Below, piece by piece: positions 1 to 15,025 of a stretch of 15,025 nucleotides of DNA. The stretch's first letter is position 1; each line of letters opens with the position of its first letter. The stretch covers positions 1-15,025 of the forward strand of contig JANXXG010000087.1 in assembly GCA_025350745.1 (NCBI GenBank), in the 5' to 3' direction. The stretch comes from Chloroflexota bacterium. GTDB lineage: Bacteria > Chloroflexota > Limnocylindria > P2-11E. The notes under the pieces are model-generated. The model was not told the DNA's origin, searched no databases, and was given only the letters and a program-made list of their open reading frames with translations. The position numbers were made by a program, and so were the translations under genes.

Positions 1-995
1 CGGGCGTTCGCGAGCGCGATCGCCGCGTGCACCGCGAACCCCTCGAGCGCGTCGCGCTCCGAGCTGTCGAACGGTCGCACCTGGGTCCGCCCGACATTCA
101 GCACCGCGGCGATCTCGCCCTGCACGAGCACCGGGATCGCGATGGCGCTGCGAAGACCGAGGTCGATGACCGCCTGGGGCGCGTCCGGCAGGAGCCGATA
201 ATCGTCGACCGCGACGGTCGAGCGCGTTGCCACGACCTTGCCGACGATCCCGGCCGTGGCCGGCGCGTGCACGCCGATGACCCGCGTGCCGATCCCCGCA
301 CCGGCGATGATCAGGAACTCCTTTCCCCGGTGGACGTTGAGCGTCGCGTGCTCCGCCGGCACGAGCTCGAGGGCGTGCCGCGGGATCGAGGACAGGACCA
401 GATCGGCGTCGGTCTCGGCCGCGACCTCGGCGGCGGCCGATGCGAGCAGCTTCGCTCGACGGAGATTGCGCACGGCGCGCTCCTGCTCGGCGCGATACGA
501 GGTCACGATGACCCCGGTCACGAGCATCACCAGACCGACGACGATGACCTCGCGGAGGATCGCCCGCGGGTCGAGCGGTACCCCGAGATCGGTGGCGACA
601 AGCTGCTTGGCAAAGACCGCGAGGAGGAAGACCGCGCCACTGACCGCGATCCCGGCGCGGCCGAGGCGGAACTGCACGAGCGCCGCAGCGATCAGGACGA
701 GGGCAAAGGCAATGCTGTTGGGGTCGGCCGCGGTCGCGACGAGCCAGAGGGCCGTGATCAGCAGATCGGCGAGGACCAGACCGATCGGCGCGGTGGACAC
801 CGTGAACGGCCGACCGCGGGCCGTCTGGGCGATCCAGCTGTAGACGATCGTCCCGAACACGATGGCGAGCGCGGGAACAGTGATCGCCGGCACGATCCGA
901 CTGCCGCTCGCGACCCAGCCCGCGCCCGCGACGAGGGCGAACAGCCGCCCATAGATCAGGGGGTCGCTCGGGACAGCGCGTCCGAGCCGTTTCAC
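1..995 (-). CDS. Membrane-anchored GAF-domain sensor protein (C-terminus cut by window edge)
   Basis: This frame is open from the start codon to the window edge and gives 331 residues with the C-terminus missing. About six hydrophobic helices are visible (roughly residues 14-30, 36-55, 70-88, 94-110, 114-130 and 148-166). A charged, probably coiled segment (about 167-195) follows, then a GAF domain from about 196 to the edge. The GAF ends in the usual pattern: SAIAIPVLVQGEIAAVLNVG, then FDSSERDALEGFAVHAAIAL. The region lost off the left edge would probably carry an output domain such as a histidine kinase, GGDEF or HD domain, but this cannot be seen. I chose GTG at 995 because a TACGGT hexamer lies 7 bases before it. 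GTG at 1004 is the alternative, and neither has a Shine-Dalgarno sequence. The gene begins 37 bases after the ABC ATPase stop. Being a membrane GAF sensor is well supported; its ligand and output are unknown. Confidence 0.8.
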   Translation of the reverse strand, partial: MKRLGRAVPSDPLIYGRLFALVAGAGWVASGSRIVPAITVPALAIVFGTIVYSWIAQTARGRPFTVSTAPIGLVLADLLITALWLVATAADPNSIAFALVLIAAALVQFRLGRAGIAVSGAVFLLAVFAKQLVATDLGVPLDPRAILREVIVVGLVMLVTGVIVTSYRAEQERAVRNLRRAKLLASAAAEVAAETDADLVLSSIPRHALELVPAEHATLNVHRGKEFLIIAGAGIGTRVIGVHAPATAGIVGKVVATRSTVAVDDYRLLPDAPQAVIDLGLRSAIAIPVLVQGEIAAVLNVGRTQVRPFDSSERDALEGFAVHAAIALANA

Positions 996-1002
996 TCGGC
1001 TC

Positions 1003-1008
1003 ACCGTA
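1003..1008 (-). promoter_or_regulatory. Candidate -10 hexamer TACGGT for a leaderless GAF-sensor mRNA
   Basis: Read on the minus strand, TACGGT (TANNNT pattern) lies 7 bases before the GTG at 995. This is the spacing seen when transcription starts at the start codon itself. No -35 match was found, and the gene could equally be read from the upstream ABC operon. Confidence 0.3.
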
Positions 1009-1032
1009 CGAGCGGTGCGACCGCTACGGGTA

Positions 1033-2136
1033 TCAGCCGCGGGCCGCTCCCTCACGCGGTACCGATCCGGCAGGGAACGCCCGGAAGGCGCCGTCACGGA
1101 CGCGCAGACCGACGGCCGCGCCGGCCGGCTGCAACGGTACGCCGCGCTCCATCGGGACCGTCGCCTGGAGCTCCACGCCGCCGGCCAGCAGCTGGTAGAG
1201 GGCCGAACCCCCGAGGAAGCTCGATGCGACCACCGTCCCGGCGATCGCTCCGTCGGCACCAGCGGGCACCACGTGGACCTCCTCCGGCCGGATCATGACG
1301 TCGACCTGATCCCCTTCCGCATAGACCCCGGGCGCGAACGAGGTCGGCCGTGACGCACCGAGCGTCTCGACGATCAGCGTGTCACCCCGCCGCCCGCGGA
1401 TGATGCCTGCGGTGAAGTTCGCGTGACCGACGAACGCCGCCACGAGGCGGTCAGCGGGCTCCTCGTAGATCTCACGTGGCGTCCCCAGCTGCGCGATCCG
1501 GCCGCGGTCCATCACGGCGATCCGGTCCGCGAGCGTCATCGCCTCGGCCTGGTCGTGCGTGACGTACAAGCTCGTGATGCCGACCCGCTGCTGGAGGGTC
1601 CGGATCTCGAGGCGCATCTGCTCGCGCAGCTTGGCGTCGAGGTTCGAGAGCGGTTCGTCGAAGAGCAGGAGCTTCGGCTCGAGGATAAGCGCCCGCGCCA
1701 GAGCGACGCGCTGTTGCTGACCACCGGAGAGCTGCTGCGGCCTGCGGTCCCCAAGACCCTCGAGACCGACCAGTTCGAGCGCTGCATGGACCTTGTCCCG
1801 CAGAGCCTGGCCGCCGACCCGGCGGACCCGCAGTCCGTAGCCGACGTTCTCGAAGACGGAGAGGTGCGGGAACAACGCGTAGCCCTGGAAGACCATCGTC
1901 GCACCGCGCCGGTCGGGCGGGAGGACGTCGATCCGCTTCCCGCCGAGCTCGATCGTGCCTGCGGACGGATCCTCGAAACCAGCCACCATCCGCAGCGTGG
2001 TCGTCTTGCCGCAGCCGCTGGGTCCGAGAAGGGCGACCAGCTCACCCGCCCCGACCTCGAGGTCGATGCCATCGACCGCCACGGTGCCGTTGGGGAAGCG
2101 CTTCTCGAGGTGCCGCAGGACGAGATCCGCGGTCAT
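1033..2136 (-). CDS. ABC importer ATP-binding subunit (FbpC/PotA-type, with TOBE domain)
   Basis: This 367-residue protein is the cytoplasmic ATPase powering the importer encoded just upstream. The nucleotide-binding domain has all key motifs: Walker A GPSGCGKT (38-45), Q-loop Gln84 in FQGYALFPHL, signature LSGGQQQR (136-143), Walker B LLLFDEP (156-162), D-loop SNLD and switch His194. The C-terminal part (about 235-350) fits the TOBE regulatory domain of the iron, spermidine, sulfate and phosphonate ATPase group (COG3842). Its ATG overlaps the permease stop as ATGA, which implies translational coupling and fixes the start. Length and motif set are normal, so it should be active. Homologues in this group serve many substrates, and the ATPase sequence alone does not name the ligand. 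Confidence 0.95.
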   Translation of the reverse strand: MTADLVLRHLEKRFPNGTVAVDGIDLEVGAGELVALLGPSGCGKTTTLRMVAGFEDPSAGTIELGGKRIDVLPPDRRGATMVFQGYALFPHLSVFENVGYGLRVRRVGGQALRDKVHAALELVGLEGLGDRRPQQLSGGQQQRVALARALILEPKLLLFDEPLSNLDAKLREQMRLEIRTLQQRVGITSLYVTHDQAEAMTLADRIAVMDRGRIAQLGTPREIYEEPADRLVAAFVGHANFTAGIIRGRRGDTLIVETLGASRPTSFAPGVYAEGDQVDVMIRPEEVHVVPAGADGAIAGTVVASSFLGGSALYQLLAGGVELQATVPMERGVPLQPAGAAVGLRVRDGAFRAFPAGSVPREGAARG

Positions 2137-3776
2137 GCCCCGACCTCGATGGGTGCCTTGCCGAAGACGCGGTTCAAGGTGATCACGGCCGCGAGCACGA
2201 TCACGATGAGGATCGTCGAGTACGCGGCCCCTGAGCCGAGGCGTTGGGCATCGATCTCATTCAGGATCTGCGACGTCATGATCCGCCAGTTCGGGGTGAC
2301 GAGGAGGGCGATGGTCGACAGGGTCGTCATGTTGCGAGTGAAGCTGAAGATCGCGCCGCTCAGGACGGCCCGCCGGACGAGCGGCAAGGTGATGCGCCGG
2401 AAGGTGGTCGCCGCGCCGGCACCGAGGTTCGCCGAGGCCTGCTCGAGGGACGGATCGATCTGAAGGAGCGCCGCGACCGTGGTCCGCAGGGACACCGGCG
2501 CCGTGCGGATCACGAACGCGATGATGAAGATCACCGCGGTACCGCTGAGCAAGAATGGTCGGTGGTTGAACGCGAGAAGGATCCCGAGGCCGAGGACGAT
2601 CCCGGGGGCCGCGGCGCCGAGCATGACGACGTAGTCGAACACGGTCCGGCCGGGCACCTTTGTCCGGACGACCAGGTACGCGGTCGCGAGTCCCAGGAGG
2701 GCCGCGATCGGGGCGGCCACCGCCGACAGGAACGTCGTGTCCGTCATGGCGCGAGTCCCGATGCCGCCGAGCACGAACTTGAAGTTGTCGAGCGTCACGG
2801 TGTTGTCGATCCCGAGCAGCTTCGTGAACGCGCCCGCGAGCACCGTGAGGTACAGGAGGAGCACGAGGACCGCCACCGTGCCGGTGACGACGAGCAGGCC
2901 GACGCGGAATGACGCGCCGAGGCGTTGCGCGCGCCCACCCGAGGGCTTGCCCGTGACGGTGACGACCGAGCTCTCGCCGACCCAGATCCGCTGCGCGAAA
3001 TACGCAAGGAGCGAGGGAAGCATGAGCACGACGGAGTACGCGACGGCCTTGCGGGTGTCGAACTCGCCGATGATCGCGAGATATGCGCTCGAGGCGAGCA
3101 CGTTGAAGTCCCCGCCGATGAGGAGTGGGTTCGCCAGATCGGCGAGCGACTCGACGAAGATGATGAGGAACGCGGCCGCGAACCCGGGTCGAAGCAGCGG
3201 TATCACCACGGTGCGGAGGATCCGCCCACGGGACGCTCCGAGATTGAGGGCGGCTTCCTCGAGGGCGGGGTCGAGCTGGCGGACGAGCGCATCGAAGATG
3301 AGGTAGGCGACCGGGAAGAACGTGATGGTCTGCACGAACAGAAGACCGGTCAGCCCGTAGGGATCCGTCTCCCAGTGGAACAGGCCGCGGGTCAGGAGGC
3401 CCTGTCGACCGAAGAGGAAGATCGTGGACAGCGCGAGCGCGAAGGGCGGCGCGATGAGCGGGAGCAGCGCGATGTAGTGAAGCGCGGAGCGATGCGGGCC
3501 GCGGACGGCTCGCGCGGTCGTGAGCGCGAACGCGAAGCCGAGCAGCGTGCCCATGGTCGCCGCGAGCACGCCCATGAGGAGGGAGTTCACCACGACGGCG
3601 CGCGGCACCGGGAAGCTGAAGATGCGCACGATGGGTGCGACGTCGAATCGTCCCAGATCGTCCAGGACGGCCTGGCCCAGCACGTTCGCGAGGGGATAGC
3701 CGAGGCCGAACGCGATGGCCGCCGCCACCATCAGTGCGAGGGCGGCGGCGGCCGGATCGCGGCGGATCGCGATCAC
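2133..3776 (-). CDS. ABC importer permease, two fused transmembrane domains (FbpB/ThiP-like)
   Basis: This 547-residue integral membrane protein carries two BPD_transp_1 domains in one chain. The architecture is that of FbpB (ferric iron) and ThiP (thiamine) rather than two separate permease genes. Each half has the cytoplasmic EAA loop that docks on the ATPase: EEAALNLGAS followed by IPLLRP (about 173-197), and EQASANLGAG followed by LPLVRR (about 445-469). About 12 hydrophobic helices are spread over both halves. The start is GTG at 3776, overlapping the TGA of the binding-protein gene as GTGA; the frame is open further upstream, but that part is antisense-like noise over the binding-protein gene. 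The 3' end overlaps the ATPase start by 4 bases. It should form the channel of the importer, with two ATPase copies below and the lipoprotein outside. Confidence 0.93.
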   Translation of the reverse strand: MIAIRRDPAAAALALMVAAAIAFGLGYPLANVLGQAVLDDLGRFDVAPIVRIFSFPVPRAVVVNSLLMGVLAATMGTLLGFAFALTTARAVRGPHRSALHYIALLPLIAPPFALALSTIFLFGRQGLLTRGLFHWETDPYGLTGLLFVQTITFFPVAYLIFDALVRQLDPALEEAALNLGASRGRILRTVVIPLLRPGFAAAFLIIFVESLADLANPLLIGGDFNVLASSAYLAIIGEFDTRKAVAYSVVLMLPSLLAYFAQRIWVGESSVVTVTGKPSGGRAQRLGASFRVGLLVVTGTVAVLVLLLYLTVLAGAFTKLLGIDNTVTLDNFKFVLGGIGTRAMTDTTFLSAVAAPIAALLGLATAYLVVRTKVPGRTVFDYVVMLGAAAPGIVLGLGILLAFNHRPFLLSGTAVIFIIAFVIRTAPVSLRTTVAALLQIDPSLEQASANLGAGAATTFRRITLPLVRRAVLSGAIFSFTRNMTTLSTIALLVTPNWRIMTSQILNEIDAQRLGSGAAYSTILIVIVLAAVITLNRVFGKAPIEVGA

Positions 3777-4861
3777 TTGGGTGCCGGAGCCACCTCGTTC
3801 GAGAACCGATCGACGATGGCCTTCTTGTTGTCGCCGGCCCACTGGAAGTCGTAGCTGACCGTCTTCACGGTGCTGAGCTTCACCGACTTCTCTGAGACCT
3901 TGGCATCGGGATTCGTCGGGATCTGGTACGCCTTGAACGTTGCCGCGAGCTCTTGCGCCTTCACGCTGAGGGCCCAGTCCAGGAACGTCTTGCCGGCGAT
4001 CGGGTCCGGCGCATTCTTGACGAGCGCCTCGCCGCCGATCTCGTACCCGGTCCCTTCCGACGGGAAGACGACCTTCAGGTCCTTGAAGCCCTCTTCGATC
4101 GCGGCGACGGTGTCGTGCGAGAACACAACACCGATGGCGACCTCGCCCTGGCCGGCGATGCGCGCCGGCGCGGCGCCGGTCTTCTGGTACTGCAGCACGT
4201 TGGCGTGGAACTGCTTGAGGTACGCGAAGGTCTTTTCGAGATCCTTGTTGTTGAGGAACGCCTGTGTCGCGACCATCGTGTACGCCGTCCCGCTCGAGGC
4301 GGGGTGGGCCATCGAGATCTGACCCTTGTACATGGGCTTCGCCAGGTCCGCCCATGAGGTCGGCTCAGGAAGATTCTTGTCCTTCAGGACCTTCGTGTTG
4401 ACCGCGAGCCCGAGCGCGCCGACGTAGATCCCGGTCCAGACCCCGTTGGGGTCCCGATACTGCGCGGGGATCTTGTCGAACAGCTTCGGCTTGTACGCCT
4501 CGAGGAGGCCCGCGTTGTTCGCGGCGATGAAGCCGTCAGCCGGGCCACCCCACCAGACGGAGAACTGCGGGTTCGCCTTGTCGGCCGTGAGCTTCGCGAC
4601 CGCCTCGCCGCTCGAGAGCCGGACGTAGGTCGTCTTGATGCCGCACTCGGCCTCGAACGCCTTTGCGACGCCCTGGATGTACTCCTCCTGCGGTGTCCCG
4701 AGGATCGTCAGGGATCCGGTGCCCTTCGGCCCACAGGGCCCGCTGTTCGCGGCCGTCGTCGCGCTGGCGGCCGGCTGCCCGGCACCCGCCGGTGCGGCGG
4801 CGCCGCCACATGCGGCGATGAGCACCCCGAGTGCCGCGATGATCGCCATTGCCCGCTTCAT
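3773..4861 (-). CDS. ABC importer substrate-binding lipoprotein (COG1840/AfuA-type)
   Basis: This 362-residue extracytoplasmic binding protein delivers the ligand to the permease. The ATG at 4861 is favoured over an in-frame GTG at 4867 because a GGAGG sequence lies 7 bases before it. The N-terminus is MKRAMAIIAALGV followed by lipobox IAAC, so Cys18 would be lipidated; an Ala/Gly/Thr/Pro-rich tether of about 25 residues follows. The fold signature of the family is clear: SLTILGTPQEEYIQG near the mature N-terminus, FSVWWGGPADGF, the hinge-side AHPASSGTAY, and GEVAIGVVFSHD. At the place where ferric-binding FbpA proteins carry a Tyr-Tyr pair, this protein reads FSHD, so it is unlikely to bind iron in the FbpA manner. 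A phosphonate, thiamine-like or other small anionic ligand is possible. The gene heads the three-gene importer operon. Confidence 0.92.
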   Translation of the reverse strand: MKRAMAIIAALGVLIAACGGAAAPAGAGQPAASATTAANSGPCGPKGTGSLTILGTPQEEYIQGVAKAFEAECGIKTTYVRLSSGEAVAKLTADKANPQFSVWWGGPADGFIAANNAGLLEAYKPKLFDKIPAQYRDPNGVWTGIYVGALGLAVNTKVLKDKNLPEPTSWADLAKPMYKGQISMAHPASSGTAYTMVATQAFLNNKDLEKTFAYLKQFHANVLQYQKTGAAPARIAGQGEVAIGVVFSHDTVAAIEEGFKDLKVVFPSEGTGYEIGGEALVKNAPDPIAGKTFLDWALSVKAQELAATFKAYQIPTNPDAKVSEKSVKLSTVKTVSYDFQWAGDNKKAIVDRFSNEVAPAPK

Positions 4862-4867
4862 TCCCAC

Positions 4868-4901
4868 CCTCCGTATCGCGTCAAGCGTGCATCAAAAGAT
4901 A
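4868..4901 (-). promoter_or_regulatory. Ribosome binding site and weak candidate promoter of the importer operon
   Basis: On the minus strand a GGAGG Shine-Dalgarno core (within 4868-4874) sits 7 bases before the binding-protein ATG, and it decides the start. A TATCTT hexamer at 4896-4901 could be a -10 element. No convincing -35 element is visible, and readthrough from the cupin gene is also possible. The 66-base gap holds a CGTCGACG palindrome but no convincing terminator. Confidence 0.4.
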
Positions 4902-4927
4902 ACCGCCGTCGACGATCCTCTTTTCGC

Positions 4928-5257
4928 TCACAGGTCGTCGCGCGCCGGCGCCCAGATGTCAATGACCTGGCAGGCCTGCTCGAGCACCCGGGCCCCGTGG
5001 GAGGCGTTGGGGGGGACGCGATAGGTGTCTCCCGGGGTGAGGATCCGCTGCTCGCCGGCAATGACCATGACCATGCTGCCCTTCGTGATCACGCCGGTCT
5101 GCTCCATCGGATGCTTGTGCGACTCGACAACGGTCGTCGCGGCAAGATCGGTGATCGCGACAGTGGCCGCGTCAGCGCGGATGATGCGCTGGGTCATGCC
5201 AGGGATCGGGGTCTTGACCGGGAGATCGCGCGGGGAGGCGAAGTAGAGCTTGGGCAC
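4928..5257 (-). CDS. Small single-domain cupin protein
   Basis: This 109-residue protein is one beta-barrel cupin domain. Metal ligands are recognisable: His47 and His49 in SHKHPMEQ, with Glu52 or Gln53 next, and His87 in the second motif (GDTYRVPPNASHG). The HxHPxEQ form is common in small stand-alone cupins whose functions range from metal-dependent isomerases and dioxygenases to ligand sensors, so no reaction is assigned. No signal peptide is visible, so it is probably cytoplasmic. The start is GTG at 5257. No Shine-Dalgarno precedes it, but a TAGCAT hexamer ends 6 bases upstream, which supports both this start and a leaderless transcript. It lies 40 bases after clpX and 66 bases before the importer genes and may belong with either or with neither. 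Confidence 0.85.
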   Translation of the reverse strand: MPKLYFASPRDLPVKTPIPGMTQRIIRADAATVAITDLAATTVVESHKHPMEQTGVITKGSMVMVIAGEQRILTPGDTYRVPPNASHGARVLEQACQVIDIWAPARDDL

Positions 5258-5263
5258 GCCGGC

Positions 5264-5269
5264 ATGCTA
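5264..5269 (-). promoter_or_regulatory. -10 hexamer TAGCAT for a leaderless cupin mRNA
   Basis: On the minus strand TAGCAT is followed by exactly 6 bases and then the cupin GTG. The same hexamer with the same 6-base spacing stands before the histidine kinase start at 7326. The repetition at two unrelated genes supports a real leaderless promoter element. No clear -35 element was seen. Confidence 0.5.
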
Positions 5270-5297
5270 GCGCCCCAGCTGAAGACCTCATCGAGTC

Positions 5298-6572
<1,275 letters not shown>

Positions 6573-7232
6573 TTAGGGGACCCGCACCGGTTCGACCGCG
6601 GCGATCGAGGTGGGCTCCTCGGCCTTCGGAAGCACGGCGTCGTTCGCCTTGCCGACGTAGACATCGTCGATCAGACCGTAGGTCTTCGCCTCTTCCGCGC
6701 TCATGAACCGGTCACGCTCGGAGTCGTGACGCACCTTCTCGGCATCCTGGCCGGTGTGGAACGCGAGGATCTTCGTGAGCTTGTCGACGAGGGTCTCGAG
6801 CTCCTTCACCTGGATGATCACGTCCGGCGTGTTGCCTCGGAATCCGCCTGAGCCCTGGTGGATCATGATCCGCGAATTCGGCAGCGCGAACCGCTTCCCG
6901 GGCGCGCCCGCCGCGAGCAGCACGGCGGCCATGGATGCGGCCTGACCGATGCATACGGTGTTGATGGGCGAGCGGAGGTACTGCATCGTGTCGTAGATCG
7001 CGAGACCTGCAGTGACGACGCCACCACCCGAGTTGATGTAGACGTGGATGTCCTTCTCAGGGTCCTCGGAATCGAGGAACAGCAGCTGGGCGATGATGAG
7101 ATTGGCCATGTTGTCTTCGATCATGTCGGTGATGAAGATGATCCGGTCCTTCAGCAGGCGGGAGAAGATGTCGTACGCCCGCTCGCCGCGGCCGGACTGC
7201 TCCACGACCATCGGCACGAGGTTGTTCTGCAA
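6573..7232 (-). CDS. clpP: ATP-dependent Clp protease proteolytic subunit ClpP
   Basis: ClpP is the barrel-forming serine protease that degrades proteins fed by ClpX. The chain is 219 residues from TTG at 7232. The catalytic triad is clear: Ser100 in GQAASMAA, His125 in MIHQGSGG and Asp174 in SERDRFMS. The N-terminal processing region reads [20 protein letters not shown], as in other ClpPs. TTG is chosen because a consensus AGGAGG stands 9 bases before it. An ATG at 7253 lies in frame, but it would turn this Shine-Dalgarno into two rare AGG arginine codons and has only GGAG 2 bases upstream. With the ATG start the protein is 226 residues. About 23 residues after the conserved ClpP fold form a variable tail rich in Ala, Glu, Pro and Val. 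Only one clpP lies here, unlike the paired clpP1-clpP2 of actinobacteria. Confidence 0.96.
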
Positions 7233-7264
7233 CGCGGTGACCCTCCTCGACATGGCTCCGTCCG

Positions 7265-7270
7265 AGTGTA
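7265..7270 (-). promoter_or_regulatory. Candidate -10 hexamer TACACT for clpPX
   Basis: On the minus strand TACACT (TANNNT) stands about 32 bases before the TTG start of clpP. Transcription would begin near 7256-7258, giving a short leader that holds the AGGAGG site. No good -35 match was seen. Confidence 0.35.
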
Positions 7271-7279
7271 CCAACCGAT

Positions 7280-7313
7280 GTCCGACGGACCGGGTGGCGA
7301 GACGGTAGCCGTC
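7280..7313. promoter_or_regulatory. Two short perfect dyads in the divergent clpP/kinase promoter region
   Basis: GTCCG-A-CGGAC (7280-7290) and GACGG-TAG-CCGTC (7301-7313) are perfect inverted repeats, 10 bases apart, in the 93-base region between clpP and the histidine kinase. The second ends exactly where the kinase -10 hexamer begins. They could be operator half-sites, but short dyads also arise by chance in GC-rich DNA. Confidence 0.3.
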
Positions 7314-7319
7314 TAGCAT
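7314..7319 (+). promoter_or_regulatory. -10 hexamer TAGCAT for a leaderless histidine kinase mRNA
   Basis: TAGCAT is followed by 6 bases and then the kinase ATG at 7326, with no Shine-Dalgarno between them. This is the layout of a leaderless mRNA and matches the cupin promoter in hexamer and spacing. Confidence 0.5.
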
Positions 7320-7325
7320 TCGGGC

Positions 7326-9767
7326 ATGCGCCGCCGTTGGCCGTTGGTGAGCATTCCGGTGGTCTACGCGGTGGCCGTGTACCTCGCTCTGCTCGCCTCG
7401 CGATCGCGCGGCGACAGTGCGGAGATCCTCGTCCTCGTCATCGGCGTGAGCGTTGCCGTCGGGGTGCTCGCCTGGCGATTCGCCGAGCGTCTCGAGTCCG
7501 CCCGGGCCCTCGCGGAGCGCGGGCAGGCCGAGCTCGCGCTGGTCGGCAAGCTGGCGGCGGGACTGTCTGGTCCACTCGATCCGGCCGAGGTGGCGACGCA
7601 GTACCTGGATGCGGTCGCGGACGCTCTGCCCCCGACGTCGGTCGCGACACTCCTCCAGTACGAAGAAGCGACAGAGTCGATCCGGATCCTCGCCCAGCAC
7701 GGACGGGCCGTCGCTGAGGCGACCGGCACCATCTACCCGGTGGCCATCCTGCCGGCCGGGATGCGCGCGAAGATCATCGGAGAGCAGCGGAGCTACGTGA
7801 TCGACGACACGACGCAGGACCCCGAGTGGCCAGTGTTCGCGACAGCGGTGCCGCTGGCGGCCCGGGCTCGGACGTTCGCCGCGATGCCGCTGGTCTCGCG
7901 CTCGCGCCTCATCGGGTCACTCGTGATCTCGGACCCGCGACCACGGGGCATCGATCGCGACCAGCTTCAGATCGTCGCGCTGCTGCTGCAGTACGCGGCA
8001 GGCGCCCTCCACAACGCGCTCTCGATCGCGGAAGCCGACGAACGAGCCGACCGCGAGGCGGTCGCCAACCGGATCGCGCAGCGTCTGTATTCGGACCTGG
8101 ACCCGAGCACCGTCGTCCGCTCGGCTCTCGAAGCGCTCGGGGCCGAGCTCAAGGTCTCGCGCGTGCTCGTGGCCTCTCGCGACGAGCATGGTGAGATAAA
8201 GGTGATCCACACCTGGTCGGCCGAAGGCGTGGAACCGATCCCCGTCGGGACGCGCGGCGAGCTCCCGCTCGCGATGCTCGCCGCGCGAGAAGGCCGGACC
8301 ATCGCGGTGCGCGACGCCGAGCACGACCCGCGACTGGCCGATCCGGCTCTCGGCGGTCACCGCTTCATCGACCGCGGGACGCGGGCCGGCATCGCGACCC
8401 CGATCGGTCTGGGCGGGCAGCTCACCGGCGTGCTCGTCCTGCATCAGGTCGGCGCGTCGCGGGCCTGGACGGTGCAGGACATCCGCCTCCTCGAGACGAT
8501 CGCCCGGGAGCTCCGGACAGCCCTTGAGGCCGCGAACCTGCTCGAGGCCCGGAGGCGGGAGAGTGAGCGGATGCTGGCACTGCATCACGCCTCATCACTG
8601 GTCGCCGGCGAAATGGATCCGAGCGAGGTCCTCGGCGAGATCCTGGACGCAACGGCCGCCCTCCTGGGGCGCGGCGTCGCCGCGCTCTATCGCTGGGACG
8701 ACCGCGCCCAGGTGCTCCGTCTGGCCGAGGACGTGCGCGCCGCGCCTGGCACCGCCAAGGTGATCGGGGCCGGCGTAGGAGTCGGCGGGCAGGCATTCGC
8801 GTCGGGCACGCCCGTCATCGTCAATAACTACGCCGAATGGGTGCACGCGGCGCCCGCCAACGTCGCGGCGGGGTGGCGCGCAGCAGTTTCCGTCCCCCTC
8901 GTCCGGGCCGGACAGCGCCTCGGGGTCCTGACCGTTGGAGCAACGGATCGGCACACCCGCTTCGACGATGAGGACGCCCGGCTGCTCGGACTCTTCGGCG
9001 ACCAGGTCGCCGCGGCGCTCGGGACCGCTGAGCTTGTGGCCCAGCAACGGAAGGCCGTGCAGCAGCTCGAGCGCCTGAACGCCGCCAAGAGCGACTTCGT
9101 CTCCATCGTGAGCCATGAGTTCCGAACGCCCCTCACCGGCATCCAGGGCTTCAGCGAGCTCATCCGCGACGAGGAGCTGTCGGTCGAGGAGGTGAAGGAG
9201 TACGCCGGTGACATCAACACCGACGCGCAGCGGCTGAACCGCATGATCACCGAGATGCTCGACCTCGACCGGATGGAGTCCGGCCGCATGACCCTCAACG
9301 TGGAGCGTGTCGACCTCAATGCCGTCCTCGCGGAGGCGGCCGGGCGGCTGGCCCAGGGGGCGCCACGCCATCCGATCCGGCTGCAGCTCGATCCGATGCT
9401 CCCGTTGGTCGACCTCGACCGGGACAAGATGAGCCAGGTGATGCTGAACCTCCTGAGCAACGCCGTGAAGTACTCACCCGATGGCGGCGAGATCACGATC
9501 ACGACCCGCATCGAGGGGGAGATGGTCCACGTATTCGTTCGCGATGCGGGTCTCGGCATCCCCGCGGATTCGCTCGAGAAGGTCTTCGATCGCTACTCGC
9601 GGCTCGAATCGGGCGCCACGCGGTACATCCAGGGGACCGGTCTCGGGTTGCCCATCACGCGGCAGATCGTCGAGATGCAGGGCGGCCGGGCGTGGGTGGA
9701 GAGCACCGTCGGCGAAGGATCCGTCTTTCAGTTCACACTGCCGCTCAGCGCTGTCGCGAGCATCTAG
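7326..9767 (+). CDS. Membrane-bound sensor histidine kinase with three GAF domains
   Basis: This 813-residue kinase probably heads the signalling operon. Two hydrophobic helices (about 7-24 and 32-50) with only a short loop between them anchor it, so sensing is most likely cytoplasmic through three successive GAF domains (about 84-232, 257-402 and 428-568). Each ends in the usual strand-and-helix pattern, for example [16 protein letters not shown] and [17 protein letters not shown] short coiled linker leads to the HisKA dimerisation domain with phospho-acceptor His597 in SHEFRTPL. The ATPase domain has N-box [11 protein letters not shown] (Asn712), G1 DAGLGI (740-745) and G2 GTGLGL (770-775). 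All catalytic motifs are intact. The ligand bound by the GAF domains cannot be told. The next gene starts 9 bases later and encodes a receiver, its likely partner. The leaderless TAGCAT element supports the ATG start. Confidence 0.95.
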
Positions 9768-9776
9768 GAGGACCTG

Positions 9777-10148
9777 ATGGCGAGGATCGTGTTCTGCGAA
9801 GATGACCCCATGATCCAGAAGCTCGTCCGCGCAGCCCTGCGCGACTCGGGCCACGACCTGCATCTGGCCTCGGACGGCGAAGAGGGCCTGGCCCTCATCC
9901 GGACCCTGCGTCCCGACCTCGTGTTCAGCGACGTGTCCATGCGGAAGATGGACGGCTATCAGCTGGGCGACGCGCTGAAGGCGTCACCCGACACCGCGGC
10001 CATCCCGCTGGTGTTCGTCACGGCATCGGTGCAGCGCTCCCAGATCGAGGAAGCGACGAAGCATGGCGGCGAGAGTGTCCTCCCGAAGCCGTTCACGATG
10101 GCTGAGCTCCGGGCGAAGGTCGCCGAGCTCCTTTCGGCGGGACACTAG
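9777..10148 (+). CDS. Stand-alone response regulator receiver protein (CheY-like)
   Basis: This 123-residue protein is a single receiver domain with no output domain. It has the complete active site: acidic Asp9 and Asp10, phospho-acceptor Asp52 in VFSDVSM, Thr82 in VFVTAS and Lys104 in LPKPF. It should be phosphorylated by the adjacent kinase and act by protein contact, or pass phosphate on in a relay. The start is firm: AGGAGG, overlapping the kinase stop codon, lies 5 bases before the ATG. The next gene begins 2 bases after its stop. Confidence 0.94.
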   Translation: MARIVFCEDDPMIQKLVRAALRDSGHDLHLASDGEEGLALIRTLRPDLVFSDVSMRKMDGYQLGDALKASPDTAAIPLVFVTASVQRSQIEEATKHGGESVLPKPFTMAELRAKVAELLSAGH

Positions 10149-10150
10149 CG

Positions 10151-11299
10151 GTGGCCGGCGAGCGCATCCTCGTCGTCGACGACGAGGGTCAGATCCGCAA
10201 GCTCCTCCAGGCGACGCTCCAGCGTCACGGGTATGTGGTCTCCACGGCGGAGGACGGGTATGAGGCGCTCCGCGAGATCAGGAAGGCGCCACCGCACCTG
10301 GTCATCACCGACGTCGCGATGCCGAATCTCAATGGACTGGAGCTGACGCGCCGCCTCCGCGCGGAGGCAGCGACCGCGCGGCTCCCGATCATCATGCTGT
10401 CCGCCCGGAAGCAGGCCGACGACATCCTCGCCGGCTACGCGCAGGGTGCCGATGAGTACATCGCGAAGCCGGTCGAGCTGGCGGTCCTCGCGGCGAAGGT
10501 GGAGCTCCTCCTACGCCGCTCGACCGAGGCGGACGCCAAAGCCGGCGCCGGGCGGCGCGCCGGGCGGGTGTGCGTGTTCCTGCACGGCAAGGGCGGCGTC
10601 GGATCCACGACCCTTGTGGTGAACGGAGCGATCGCTCTCGCCAGCACGATGATCTATCGGGTCGCGCTCCTCGATCTGTCACTCGAGTTCGCCAACTGCG
10701 GGATGCTGATGGATCTGAAGCCGCCGCGGACCCTCGCGGACCTCTCGGACGTCCGGATCGCGGACATGAGCGACGACCTGTTCGACCTCTTCGTGGCTCC
10801 GCATCCGAGCGGCGTGCGGCTGGTGACCGGCTCCGACAGCCCCGAGCTCGCCGAGCTCGCCACCGTCTCGGCAGTGCACCATGCGCTCGAGCGCCTTCGG
10901 TCGTCGGCGGATTACGTGCTCGTGGACTGCGCTGCGACCTTCACCCAGCACACGCTTGCGGCCGTCGACGCGGCGGACGTCATCGCGGTCGTCACGACGC
11001 CACACCTCGCCTCGATGAAGGCTTCGCTCGACATCATTCGAGTCCTCGAGAAGCTCAAGATCCCGAAAGAGCGGGTGCTCCTGATCCTCAACCGCACCAC
11101 CGCCTCGGGTGTCCCGATCGAGCAGCTGAGCCGCTTCTTCGGCCGTAAGCCCGAGGTGATCATCCCGTTCACCCCACCCTTCGACGACGCGGCCGACGGC
11201 GGCAGGCCGCTCGTGATGACCGCGCCCCAGAACGTCGGCAGCGTCGTCATGCGCGATCTTGCGGCGCAGATCACGGTCGCCGCTCCGATCGCGCACTAA
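10151..11299 (+). CDS. Receiver domain fused to CpaE/TadZ-like MinD-family ATPase
   Basis: This 382-residue protein joins a full receiver domain (about 5-122) to a MinD/ParA-superfamily domain (about 139-380), the layout of CpaE/TadZ, which localise Tad pilus machinery. The receiver looks functional: Asp10, Asp11, Asp54 in VITDVAMPN, Ser84 and Lys106. The nucleotide-binding loop reads GKGGVGSTT (146-154). It keeps the signature lysine Lys147, but the usual Walker A lysine is Ser152, a departure known in CpaE/TadZ proteins. Other motifs are LLDLSLEFANCGML (switch region) and YVLVDCAATF (Walker B). GTG at 10151 follows the previous stop by 2 bases without a clear Shine-Dalgarno, which suggests coupled translation. 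No pilus genes are in the window, so a positioning or scaffold role in this signalling set is inferred, not shown. Confidence 0.88.
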   Translation: MAGERILVVDDEGQIRKLLQATLQRHGYVVSTAEDGYEALREIRKAPPHLVITDVAMPNLNGLELTRRLRAEAATARLPIIMLSARKQADDILAGYAQGADEYIAKPVELAVLAAKVELLLRRSTEADAKAGAGRRAGRVCVFLHGKGGVGSTTLVVNGAIALASTMIYRVALLDLSLEFANCGMLMDLKPPRTLADLSDVRIADMSDDLFDLFVAPHPSGVRLVTGSDSPELAELATVSAVHHALERLRSSADYVLVDCAATFTQHTLAAVDAADVIAVVTTPHLASMKASLDIIRVLEKLKIPKERVLLILNRTTASGVPIEQLSRFFGRKPEVIIPFTPPFDDAADGGRPLVMTAPQNVGSVVMRDLAAQITVAAPIAH

Positions 11300-11301
11300 C
11301 C

Positions 11302-12615
11302 GTGCGGACACGCTTTTGGGGAGTGCGCGGGTCTATCGCTGCCCCCGGCCCGGAGACCGCGCGATACGGCGGCAACACGCCGTGCGTGGAGACCAGGACC
11401 GACGACGGCACGCTGCTGATCTTCGATTGCGGCACCGGCGCGCGCAAGCTTGGGATCGCGCTGGCTCGACGCGGTCCGGTGCGGGCCCACCTCTTCATCA
11501 GCCATACCCATGCCGATCACATCCAGGGCCTGCCATTCTTCCTGCCGGCGTTCGTGCCCGGCTCGCACCTCACGGTGTATGGGCCCGCGGGCATCGACCG
11601 GTCCTTCCCCTCCGCGCTCGGCGGGCAGATGGACTATTCGTACTTCCCGGTGGCGATGGATCAGCTCGCGGCCAAGGTCGAGGTCGTGGAGCTCGCGGAG
11701 GGAGAGTTCACCATCGGCTCGATCCGCGTCCGGACCCAATTCCTGAACCACACCGCTCCGACGCTCGCGTACCGCGTGACGTCCGGTGGCGCGAGCCTCG
11801 TGTACTCCACCGATCACGAATCCCACGAGGGCGCGACCTGGCGTCCCGGCCGCGCCGAGGGCACGTACGACGATGCCGACCTGCTGCATCCCGGCGACCA
11901 GCGGCACGCCGCGTTCATGCGCGACGCGGATGTGGTCATCCACGATGCCCAATACCACGCGCCGGATTACCCCGCGAAGGCCGGCTGGGGCCACAGCACG
12001 ATCGAGTACGCCGTCGACATCGCGCGCGCCGGGAACGTCCGGCGGCTGGTGCTGTTCCACCACGATCCCAGCCGCGACGATGCCGGTATCGACGCCCTCG
12101 TCCGGGCGGCGCGGATCCGGGCCGGCGCTCTCGACGTCACCGCTGCCGCGGAGGGCGACGAGCTCGTGATCGAGGAGGCCGCCGATGACACCGCGGCGCC
12201 CGTCGAGGGCCCGCGGACCCCCACCCTCCAGACCCGCGCCCGCGTCCTGGTGGCCGACGACGACGGAACGATCCGTCAGGTCCTCAAGACCGTATTGAGC
12301 GGTGATGGGTACGAGGTGATCGAAGCTGCCGACGGCGCCGAGGCCCTGGCGCTCGCCCAGGCGGGGGCATTCGACCTGATCCTGCTCGACGTCCAGATGC
12401 CGAATCTGGACGGCCTCTCGGCCGCCCGTCAGCTCCGCGCCGATGCGAAGTTCGCCGACGTTCCGATCGTCATGCTCACCGGCCGGACGGCGGACAAGGA
12501 CATCGAGGCGGCGTTCGCGGAGGGCGTCACCGACTACATCACGAAGCCGTTCGCGGTGGCCCAGCTGCGGGCTCGGGTCCGCTCGTGGCTCTCGCGGTCG
12601 GCGGAGCGGGCCTGA
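11302..12615 (+). CDS. Metallo-beta-lactamase-fold hydrolase with C-terminal receiver domain
   Basis: The first about 290 residues are a PhnP/RNase Z-like metallo-beta-lactamase domain. It begins MRTRFWGVRGSI and has the HxHxDH metal site His68, His70, Asp72 and His73. Further likely ligands are His150, Asp171 and a histidine near the end of the domain (His231 or His253/His254). This branch hydrolyses phosphodiester-type bonds in characterised relatives; the substrate here is unknown. A linker rich in acidic residues, Ala and Pro (about 290-312) leads to an intact receiver domain (313-433) with Asp319-Asp321, phospho-acceptor Asp363 in LLLDVQMPN, Thr393 and Lys415. The natural reading is a hydrolase controlled by phosphorylation. 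GTG at 11302 follows the ATPase stop by 2 bases, placing it in the same operon as the kinase. Both halves are in one uninterrupted frame. Confidence 0.92.
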   Translation: MRTRFWGVRGSIAAPGPETARYGGNTPCVETRTDDGTLLIFDCGTGARKLGIALARRGPVRAHLFISHTHADHIQGLPFFLPAFVPGSHLTVYGPAGIDRSFPSALGGQMDYSYFPVAMDQLAAKVEVVELAEGEFTIGSIRVRTQFLNHTAPTLAYRVTSGGASLVYSTDHESHEGATWRPGRAEGTYDDADLLHPGDQRHAAFMRDADVVIHDAQYHAPDYPAKAGWGHSTIEYAVDIARAGNVRRLVLFHHDPSRDDAGIDALVRAARIRAGALDVTAAAEGDELVIEEAADDTAAPVEGPRTPTLQTRARVLVADDDGTIRQVLKTVLSGDGYEVIEAADGAEALALAQAGAFDLILLDVQMPNLDGLSAARQLRADAKFADVPIVMLTGRTADKDIEAAFAEGVTDYITKPFAVAQLRARVRSWLSRSAERA

Positions 12616-12644
12616 GGTCGGCGAGAGATCAAGGGGGTGGCGGG

Positions 12645-13655
12645 ATGAGCGAGCAGTGGACGGATCTGCAGCGGTACGTGATCGAGGAGCACTTCGAGGA
12701 ATACACGGAGGGGCGGATCTCGCGGCGCGAGCTCCTCAAGCGGGTCTCGTACATCACGGGGGGGACGCTCGCATCGCTTGCGGCGCTCTCCGCGCTTGGC
12801 TGTAACGTCGATCAGCCGCGCGCGCTCGGGAGCGCGGCGGCCAGCGCGGCCGCAACGCCGAAGCCGGCATCCCCGCAGCCGAACGTGCCGTTCGCGACGC
12901 CACCGGCGACCGCGTCGACAGATCCGGTGACCGTCACGCCGACCGACCCGCGGCTACGGAAAGCCAACTCGGTCTCCATCCCGTCCGGCGACGGGAAGGC
13001 CACGCTGATCGGCTACGAGGCATACCCCGCGACCCCGCGGGGCGGCGGCGTGCTCGTCATGCACGAGAACACCGGGCTCTCGGAGCACATCAAGGACGTT
13101 ATCCGGCGCGTCGCGACCGCGGGGTACGCCGGCTTCGGGATCGACCTGCTGTCACGGCAGGGCGGCGCGGAAAAGCTCGGTGGTGGCTACTCGGGCGCGC
13201 TGGCCAACACCACCGTGGACCAGATGAACGCTGACCTGATGACGGCGGTCGCGTATCTGCAGTCGAAGGCGGGGGACGGCTATGCGCCGGCGAAGATCGG
13301 CGCGGTCGGCTTCTGTTTCGGTGGCGGGACCACGTGGAACCTCGTCATCGCCGGCGCGCCGCTCGCGGCCGCGGTGCCGTTCTACGGACCGCTTCCGTCG
13401 AAGGCCGAGGGCCTTGCCACGACGAAAGCTGCGGTGCTCGCCATCTACGCGGAGCAGGACACCCGCATCACCGCGAGCTGGCCCACCGCGGAAGAGCAGC
13501 TCAAGAAGAGCGGGTCGCCGTACGCGACGAAGGTCGAGCCCGGCGTGGGGCATGCGTTCCACAACGACACGAACGGGCCGACGCGCTACGGGCCGGCGCA
13601 GGCGCAGGACGCCTGGGTGGCCACGATCGAGTGGTTCCGGAAGTATCTCGGCTAG
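12645..13655 (+). CDS. Exported dienelactone-hydrolase-family lipoprotein
   Basis: This 336-residue alpha/beta hydrolase has the cysteine triad of dienelactone hydrolases: Cys224 in GFCFGGG, Asp272 in AEQDTR and His303 in GVGHAFHN. Glu141 in MHENTG matches the conserved active-site glutamate of the family. The N-terminus holds SRRELLKR (26-33), close to a Tat twin-arginine motif, then a hydrophobic stretch ending in SALGC (Cys53), a weak lipobox. A low-complexity Ala/Pro/Thr/Ser linker (about 60-100) precedes the enzyme domain. It is therefore probably anchored outside the cytoplasmic membrane. The substrate is unknown, since the family includes many esterases of unclear role. ATG at 12645 has the purine-rich AAGGGGGTGG upstream and lies 29 bases after the hydrolase-receiver stop. 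The frame is open 60 bases further upstream, but that part overlaps the previous gene. Confidence 0.88.
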   Translation: MSEQWTDLQRYVIEEHFEEYTEGRISRRELLKRVSYITGGTLASLAALSALGCNVDQPRALGSAAASAAATPKPASPQPNVPFATPPATASTDPVTVTPTDPRLRKANSVSIPSGDGKATLIGYEAYPATPRGGGVLVMHENTGLSEHIKDVIRRVATAGYAGFGIDLLSRQGGAEKLGGGYSGALANTTVDQMNADLMTAVAYLQSKAGDGYAPAKIGAVGFCFGGGTTWNLVIAGAPLAAAVPFYGPLPSKAEGLATTKAAVLAIYAEQDTRITASWPTAEEQLKKSGSPYATKVEPGVGHAFHNDTNGPTRYGPAQAQDAWVATIEWFRKYLG

Positions 13656-13670
13656 GTGGTCCCCGACATG

Positions 13671-13745
13671 ACATAGCTGACGGTTGTCACTAGATCCCGG
13701 CCGCCATCACATCGCTGACATCGTTACCGCCAGCACATTGCTGAC
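13671..13745 (+). repeat. Three direct repeats ACATnGCTGAC (probable transposase-binding sites)
   Basis: The copies are ACATAGCTGAC (13671-13681), ACATCGCTGAC (13709-13719) and ACATTGCTGAC (13735-13745), identical except for the fifth base. Start-to-start distances are 38 and 26 bases. A TGACA/TGTCA inverted pair flanks the first copy. Arrays of this kind at a transposon end usually bind the transposase. Confidence 0.7.
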
Positions 13746-13815
13746 AACACCGACCGGCTGAGGTCGCGTCGCTTTCTAGCCTTCACGACGGAAACGCACC
13801 GTCGAGGAGGACGCA

Positions 13816-15025
13816 ATGGATGAGGAAGAGCGCCGGCGCCGTGCGATCGCGGCGCTCGGCGCGGGCCGTCGACCGGGCGAGGTCTGCGCCGAGTTTGGGC
13901 GCAGCCGCGAGTGGTTGGCGAAGTGGCAGCGTCGCTTCGCCGAGTCGGGTGCGGGCGGACTGCGCGAGCGATCGCGCGCGCCCAAGCGTCAGGCGCGGCA
14001 GACGGCGCCGGCGGTCGTCCGCGCGGTGTTGCGGGCTCGAGACCGCCTCGAGCGACGGCGGACGTTCAAAGGAGCGGGAGCAGACGCGGTCGCCTGGGAA
14101 CTCGAGCTCGCCCGGGTCCGGCCACGGCCGGCCCTGCGGACGATCGAGCGGATCCTCCAGCGCGCCGGGCGGACCGCTCGGCGCGGGCCGGTCGCGCACG
14201 AGCGCAGTGGCGCGGCGTACCCCGCGCCGCGGGCCGACCGACCGGGAGACCTGCAGGAAACCGATCTGGTCGGGCCGCGGCACCTGCGCACGCCGCGCGG
14301 ACCGGTGCGGTTCTACGGCTTCCACACCGTCGACGTCGGCGGTGGTGGCGTTGCGACCTGGCAGGGACCAGACAAGAGCGGCGAGAGCTTCTGCCAGTAC
14401 CTCGCCGAGTGCGCCTGGGCCCGGTTGGGTCTTCCGAAGATCTGGCAGGTCGACAACGAGACCACCATCGCCGGATACCCCGGCCGGCCGTTCACCCCGC
14501 CGGTCCGGCTCGCCCTGCTCCTTGGCATCGAGGTGCGATTCATCCCCGAGGGCGAGCCCGGCCGCAACGCCGACATCGAGAGCTTCAATGCCCTCTGGCA
14601 GGACCGCGTGCTGCGGCGGTTCGCGACCCCGAGCCTCGCCCGGCTGGCCACCGTTTCCGATCGCTTCGAGCGCTGGTTCATGGACGAGCGCCCACACCCC
14701 AAGCTCTCGCTCGCCCGCCACGGCACGCGCTTCCCGAGCGCGTTCCTCGCCGCGCAGGACGGCGCGCTGCCGCGGATCCCGGCGGCCTTCAGCCTCGATC
14801 GGTATCGCGATCGCTCCGGCGAGCTGCGCTTGCCGCTGGCGCGCGGGCGGATCAGCTGGGTCCGCCGGGCCGACGATCGCGGGACCGTCGCGCTGCTCGG
14901 GCGCCGGCTGCCGCTCGGCCGAGCCGCGGCGAACGAGTACGTCGTGGCGACGCTCTCGACCGCGCGTGGTGAGATCGCCGTGCGGAGTGGCGCGCTCGGG
15001 CCCAAGCACTTCAACTTCCCCGTGC
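13816..15025 (+). CDS. DDE transposase/integrase, IS481-like (C-terminus cut by window edge)
   Basis: At least 403 residues are present, open to the window edge. The N-terminus is a helix-turn-helix region (about 5-60; PGEVCAEFGRSREWLAKWQ looks like the recognition part), with a second DNA-binding segment around 62-118. The rve catalytic core follows, with Asp150 in LQETDLVGP, Asp213 in WQVDNET and Glu255 in NADIESFNALWQ, which fits a DDE triad. A C-terminal beta-rich region begins near 345. GAGGAGG stands 5 bases before the ATG at 13816, giving a firm start. The triad is intact over the visible part, so the enzyme may be active. The family name is by pattern and could be a neighbouring rve-type group instead. 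Confidence 0.87.
   Translation, partial: MDEEERRRRAIAALGAGRRPGEVCAEFGRSREWLAKWQRRFAESGAGGLRERSRAPKRQARQTAPAVVRAVLRARDRLERRRTFKGAGADAVAWELELARVRPRPALRTIERILQRAGRTARRGPVAHERSGAAYPAPRADRPGDLQETDLVGPRHLRTPRGPVRFYGFHTVDVGGGGVATWQGPDKSGESFCQYLAECAWARLGLPKIWQVDNETTIAGYPGRPFTPPVRLALLLGIEVRFIPEGEPGRNADIESFNALWQDRVLRRFATPSLARLATVSDRFERWFMDERPHPKLSLARHGTRFPSAFLAAQDGALPRIPAAFSLDRYRDRSGELRLPLARGRISWVRRADDRGTVALLGRRLPLGRAAANEYVVATLSTARGEIAVRSGALGPKHFNFPV

Follow-up and report, generated by a model that had tools for sequence, protein, structure and literature searches.

What does a histidine kinase control when none of the genes behind it encodes a DNA-binding output? The question is raised by a 15,025-nucleotide (nt) stretch of DNA from an uncultured Chloroflexota bacterium (assembly GCA_025350745.1, contig JANXXG010000087.1, positions 1 to 15,025; hereafter the window), which is an entire contig of an incomplete, 2.0-Mb assembly. 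On its forward strand, a kinase gene is followed by three genes that each encode a receiver (REC) domain: alone, ahead of a CpaE/TadZ-like ATPase (REC-ATPase), or behind a metallo-β-lactamase (MBL) domain (MBL-REC). We find that this locus is a real, conserved and clade-specific cassette of a known kind, that is, a two-component system with enzymatic outputs. Our reading, which we put forward tentatively and at somewhat less than even confidence, is that of a non-transcriptional two-component system in which the kinase acts on the placement of the ATPase and, in some lineages, also on an MBL-REC phosphodiesterase. Among the papers listed in searches of an open-access library, none appeared to describe the four-gene set.

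One kinase gene is followed by three receiver genes

The cassette in the window consists of the following genes.

7326..9767, + strand: histidine kinase, 813 amino acids; two hydrophobic N-terminal segments, three GAF domains, HisKA (H597) and HATPase_c (Pfam)
9777..10148, + strand: single-domain receiver (REC1, the lone receiver), Response_reg; phospho-acceptor D52, K104 (Pfam, alignment)
10151..11299, + strand: REC-ATPase, Response_reg and AAA_31/ParA-type, CpaE/TadZ-like member of the MinD/ParA family; D54, K106; Walker A KGGVGSTT (Pfam, model and fold searches)
11302..12615, + strand: MBL-REC, Lactamase_B_2 (PF12706) with SHTHADH at 67-73, and Response_reg (D363, K415); GTG start (Pfam, alignment)

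The intergenic gaps are 9, 2 and 2 nt. These spacings, the coordinates and the three GAF domains of the kinase had been proposed in an initial annotation made from the sequence, and the list of open reading frames (ORFs) and Pfam bear them out. Its description of a compact operon that lacks a DNA-binding output and ends in a CpaE/TadZ-like ATPase and an MBL protein also stands. As a set, though, the four genes are not fixed.

The kinase core is complete (HisKA and HATPase_c), and all three receivers carry the acidic residues, the Asp, the Thr/Ser and the Lys. The annotation had pointed to the intact phospho-acceptor Asp and Lys in the window, and the alignments of orthologs extend this finding: E8, D52, T82 and K104 of the lone receiver are invariant in 15/15 rows (the G009 row has a probable N-terminal frameshift), as are D10, D11, D54, S84 and K106 of the REC-ATPase receiver in 18/18, and D319, D320, D363, T393 and K415 of the MBL-REC receiver in 10/10.

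The kinase and REC-ATPase are the constant unit

We checked the co-occurrence and order of the four genes in 29 genomes of the order, including that of the window (G000). Gene order proved constant, but all four genes occur together in only 6/29 genomes (G000, G004, G007, G022, G023 and G014); the locus is split over two contigs in G014 and G022. REC-ATPase orthologs (56-61% identity) are present in 18 of the 29 genomes, all of one family (genera g1, g3, g4 and g7), and a search of 177 genomes of the class returned the same 18 orthologs alone at E ≤ 1e-70. Absences in these searches are soft because only some first-look candidates were scored (four per genome when 400 genomes were searched, no more than 11 in the search of the class). 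Immediately upstream of the REC-ATPase gene lies the kinase gene in 17/18 genomes; in G014 the kinase lies on the other contig, and so does the lone receiver, close to the contig end. The sensor part of the kinase is variable, with three GAF stretches in G003, G007 and L197, one in G016 and a PAS domain in G490, and a whole-length kinase search at E ≤ 1e-150 gave matches in 8/29 order genomes. Because the same genes recur in the same order in relatives, at identities of ~34-63% beyond the genus (MBL-REC, 59-64%; as high as 71% in the best-aligned segments), the locus is more than a chance assembly.

The other two members come and go to different degrees. The lone receiver is found in 15/18 cassettes (absent from G011, G017 and G020), which corresponds to one change on the tree, and its junction with REC-ATPase is a 1-nt overlap in 11 of the 14 measured cases; in G023 and G009 there is an abnormal overlap between the frames of the kinase and the lone receiver, probably through frameshifts. 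MBL-REC is found in 9/18 cassettes, a distribution that requires two changes when mapped on the ATPase tree (2-4 across bootstrap trees). The kinase also lies beside REC-ATPase in other Chloroflexota families, there without an MBL gene, as judged from 15 phylum loci viewed with at most five neighboring ORFs per side (L191 has no readable REC-ATPase context). ORFs in the relatives' loci were selected with a simple rule based on length and GC3, and many of their gene names were assigned by eye. The constant unit is thus the kinase plus REC-ATPase, and MBL-REC is an optional addition.

One genome of the window's own genus departs from this arrangement. In G001 (L034:880-1420), the N-terminus of the kinase runs in frame straight into the final residues of REC-ATPase, and an intact MBL-REC gene (81% identical) and the hydrolase gene described below follow the junction. 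No REC-ATPase ortholog was found elsewhere in this genome. Either the kinase core, the lone receiver and most of the ATPase were deleted, or the assembly is faulty here.

MBL-REC carries a signature of cyclic-nucleotide phosphodiesterases

What, then, might the optional enzyme do? Its MBL domain matches PF12706 at 64.0 bits against a cut-off of 27 and carries the motif S67-H68-T-H70-A-D72-H73. H68, H70, D72, H73, H150, D171 and H253 are invariant in 10 rows, and we take the last three to be further metal ligands. The published signature of the atypical class-II cyclic-nucleotide phosphodiesterases is [T/S]HXHXDH, and MBL-REC has this signature, PF12706 and the MBL fold in common with Rv1339, YhfI and C. 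glutamicum CpdA. It differs from these enzymes in its fused receiver and in being nearer to RNase Z by sequence: its sequence matches in the PDB are RNase Z, whereas its fold matches both RNase Z and the class-II phosphodiesterases. Stand-alone MBL paralogs adjoin class III cyclase genes. Because of the class-II signature and these paralogs, our best guess for MBL-REC is phospho-gated hydrolysis of nucleotides. It is possible, if short of probable, that the domain is instead an RNase Z-like nuclease or another phosphodiesterase under phosphorylation control, as the PDB matches would allow. The clustering of the paralogs with class III cyclases and the fit of the motif to the phosphodiesterase signature speak against this alternative, but weakly, because RNase Z shares the HxHxDH core.

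Separately, we observed a recurring cluster of a CHASE2-class III cyclase, a GAF protein, a GAF-HD-type protein and an MBL protein (L044:7641-12197, L045:5975-10739 and L046:4708-9653), which could be a cyclic-nucleotide signaling unit with its own phosphodiesterase.

Relatives of the MBL-REC fusion occur in several phyla. MBL-REC proteins and MBL-degenerate REC-GAF proteins of Pseudomonadota, Nitrospirota, Verrucomicrobiota, Myxococcota and others have the same or a similar architecture and fall into the same MBL clade; unlike in the window, no REC-ATPase gene lies beside them at the loci viewed. In the MBL tree, the family's MBL-REC nests with these other-phylum MBL-REC and MBL-REC-GAF proteins (SH-aLRT 94, just under the starred level), and the stand-alone rows of the family, order and class, one row each, are weakly placed (17). 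For this tree, 18 of the 40 stand-alone rows and matches shorter than ~230 residues were dropped, and architecture groups were assigned by length. Profile scores are ~293-380 bits for the other-phylum fusions, whereas the stand-alone MBLs listed from the family and order score 185-275. An origin of MBL-REC in situ from the family's stand-alone MBL is not favored, given the nesting and these scores.

The aligned start of MBL-REC is a non-NTG codon in most relatives

The start of the MBL-REC gene is unusual. At the aligned position the codon is ATC in 7/10 orthologs and ATT in 1/10, with ATG in G001 and GTG in the window. The ATC/ATT codons sit 1-3 nt behind the REC-ATPase stop (+ strand: L035:10009, L036:11545, L037:7098, L038:11977, L040:9974, L041:9612 and L043:1425; - strand: L042:11676). 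In G004, G007, G022 and G023, reading back from this codon meets a stop before any ATG, GTG or TTG; in the other direction the earliest such codon is number 86 or beyond, past HxHxDH (68-73). G014 likewise has none upstream and a GTG at codon 32. In G011, G017 and G020, upstream start codons in the same frame occur within the ATPase gene. At L035, L036, L040 and L041, gene calling confined to ATG, GTG and TTG would begin past the metal-binding motif. By comparison, the corresponding codon is ATG or GTG in all 13 stand-alone MBLs listed for the family. L044, from another family of the order, has TTC there, inside a longer frame. ATC or ATT also stands at the aligned place in L105, L106, L122, L126 and L091 of other phyla; these seem not to be the same case, because in the first four an ATG or TTG stands in frame three to four codons earlier and L091 is located at the end of a contig.

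The simplest reading of these junctions is that translation reinitiates at AUC or AUU just behind the ATPase stop. In E. coli, one study reports, excess initiation factor 3 inhibits non-canonical starts and re-initiation without a Shine-Dalgarno sequence (PMC2268962). Readthrough or frameshifting that would fuse REC-ATPase to MBL-REC during translation is not favored, because the MBL frame is offset from the ATPase stop by 1, 2 or 3 nt depending on the genus, whereas the start position is constant.

Which receivers does the kinase serve?

The link between the kinase and the ATPase is drawn from their conserved gene pairing. Residue comparisons between the receivers gave a mixed picture. In helix 1, an I.KL pattern is common to REC1 and REC2 (the REC-ATPase receiver) where both are present, and most MBL receivers are without it. 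We also compared the kinase-facing residues (alpha-1 and loop residues) against 111 other receivers: REC1-REC2 identity is 0.27-0.47 and exceeds the 95th percentile of those receivers in 1/6 genomes.

These data bear on an alternative that we consider unlikely, if by no great measure, in which the pathway consists of the kinase, the lone receiver and REC-ATPase, and MBL-REC is a co-transcribed passenger that receives its phosphate from another kinase. Its absence from half of the cassettes fits this picture, as does its retention in G001, where the kinase and ATPase are mostly gone. In eight of the nine genomes, moreover, the kinase-facing residues of the MBL receiver match REC2 at just 0.13-0.33, and MBL-REC genes of other phyla lie near other kinase genes (L073, L075 and L078; the L073 kinase is a hybrid). 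Against it, all 10 MBL-REC orthologs detected in the family sit at this locus, 1-3 nt from the ATPase gene in the nine readable junctions, and in the window itself the MBL receiver matches REC2 at 0.40, exceeding the 0.33 of the lone receiver.

REC-ATPase is a TadZ/CpaE paralog with a canonical receiver

Like TadZ/CpaE, REC-ATPase combines a receiver-type domain with a following MinD/ParA-fold ATPase (Pfam, model and fold searches). Superposition with 3fkq covers 378 aligned columns at a root-mean-square deviation of 9.0 and TM 0.46-0.49, so that the domains match but their arrangement differs. A deviant Walker A motif, KGGxG[S/T/C/A/N]T, is present in 18/18 orthologs, with the P-loop lysine lost and the signature lysine kept; the published deviant Walker A of TadZ/CpaE is KGGVGSS. 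Two features set REC-ATPase apart. The TadZ/CpaE receiver is described as atypical, whereas that of REC-ATPase appears canonical, with a complete phosphorylation site in 18/18. And the gene lies in a kinase operon rather than in a tad locus: no Tad family was detected among the 15 window ORFs scanned with Pfam.

The shared domain order, the similar Walker A and the occurrence of related REC-ATPase paralogs in Tad-type gene clusters could mean that REC-ATPase is simply the CpaE of this genome's Tad pilus, displaced from its own locus. We regard this as very unlikely, since the genome has a further REC-CpaE (C426, 28% identical) as well as a contig with cpaF-tadB-tadC-type genes, on contigs other than the window, and relatives with longer contigs have cpaE-cpaF-tadB-tadC together (labels by eye).

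As a side observation, REC-CpaE-like ATPases also lie within chemosensory-type clusters of another Chloroflexota family (L194, L195, L196 and L202; by eye).

The cassette sits between tig and clpP

The cassette is flanked in the window by the following genes.

12645..13655, + strand: dienelactone-hydrolase-family protein (Pfam); twin-arginine/lipobox-like N-terminus (by eye)
6573..7253, - strand: clpP, divergent; the mechanical ORF reaches 7700, and the likely start is 7253 or 7211
5298..6572, - strand: clpX
4928..5257, - strand: cupin protein, often a neighbor of clpX in relatives

The hydrolase gene is co-directional, begins 29 nt 3' of MBL-REC and is probably a fifth gene of the unit. It lies behind the cassette in 15/18 genomes (not in G007, G016 and G024), and directly after the ATPase gene in 7/9 of those in which MBL-REC is absent.

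On the other side, clpP adjoins the kinase gene in 17/18 genomes; in G043 the contig ends. At cassette-free loci (L063-L065, L067-L069 and L046), a trigger-factor-like gene (tig, by eye) adjoins clpP, and in L054 a tig-like gene (by eye) lies behind the cassette. At L066:3618-7020 (G006), the hydrolase gene stands alone between tig and clpP, a candidate for the state before cassette insertion or after its loss. The cassette therefore sits inside a tig-clpP-clpX order, and its adjacency to clpP is not necessarily functional. In Caulobacter, ClpXP works together with a single-domain receiver, CpdR, and the clpP-kinase adjacency could suggest likewise that the lone receiver controls the divergently encoded ClpXP protease; we reject this most improbable reading, since the CpdR model (equivalog) scores 54.8 bits against a cut-off of 180, the lone receiver is missing from 3/18 loci, the site is an insertion between tig and clpP, and no clpP match was found among the at most five neighboring ORFs per side at five cassette-like loci of other families.

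Two further features of the window concern its remaining ORFs. Directly behind the operon, an rve-type transposase ORF with a helix-turn-helix (13816-15024, +) runs off the contig end. The mechanical permease ORF at 2133-4355 (-) begins in a false frame over the end of a solute-binding-protein gene (3773-4867, -), and its true start lies further inside the ORF (by eye).

A proposed pathway and its meaning

The non-transcriptional two-component system that we propose is based on the domains, the intact catalytic and phosphorylation residues, the gene order and the kinase-ATPase linkage across families. The membrane-anchored kinase would sense an intracellular signal via its GAF domains and phosphorylate the receiver of the CpaE/TadZ-like ATPase, with the lone receiver as a possible diffusible second acceptor or phosphate sink. 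Phosphorylation may alter dimerization or membrane placement of the ATPase, whose state would set when and where an envelope machine assembles; the likeliest such machine is a Tad-type pilus encoded at another locus. Some lineages appear to have gained a third response regulator, MBL-REC, behind the ATPase gene; it would most likely be a receiver-gated atypical class-II cyclic-nucleotide phosphodiesterase that lowers cyclic AMP or cyclic GMP. Both Tad-type genes and numerous class III cyclases are present in the genome.

Response regulators with enzymatic outputs exist, for example those of the PleD type. In these, the receiver gates the output enzyme, as we propose here; the cassette differs in its outputs, one a MinD-type ATPase and the other an MBL hydrolase. 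A more elaborate, branched and transcription-free version strikes us as distinctly unlikely. In it, a single kinase would govern where a MinD-type machine is placed, through the phospho-gated CpaE/TadZ paralog, and also how much cyclic nucleotide is present locally, through the phospho-gated MBL phosphodiesterase, whose dose would be held low, in most lineages that have it, by reinitiation at the conserved AUC/AUU immediately after the ATPase gene.

Two aspects of the locus are surprising, namely the live receiver on a kinase-tied CpaE paralog and the odd start of MBL-REC. The latter has a practical side: for at least four of the 10 orthologs (G004, G007, G022 and G023), gene calling restricted to ATG, GTG and TTG would yield a truncated MBL gene that begins past the metal-binding motif. 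A receiver-gated MBL phosphodiesterase, if true, would link two-component signaling to cyclic-nucleotide signaling at the level of the output. And since a CpaE/TadZ paralog with a full phosphorylation site travels with a kinase in several Chloroflexota families, phospho-control of MinD/CpaE-type positioning is directly testable in this group.

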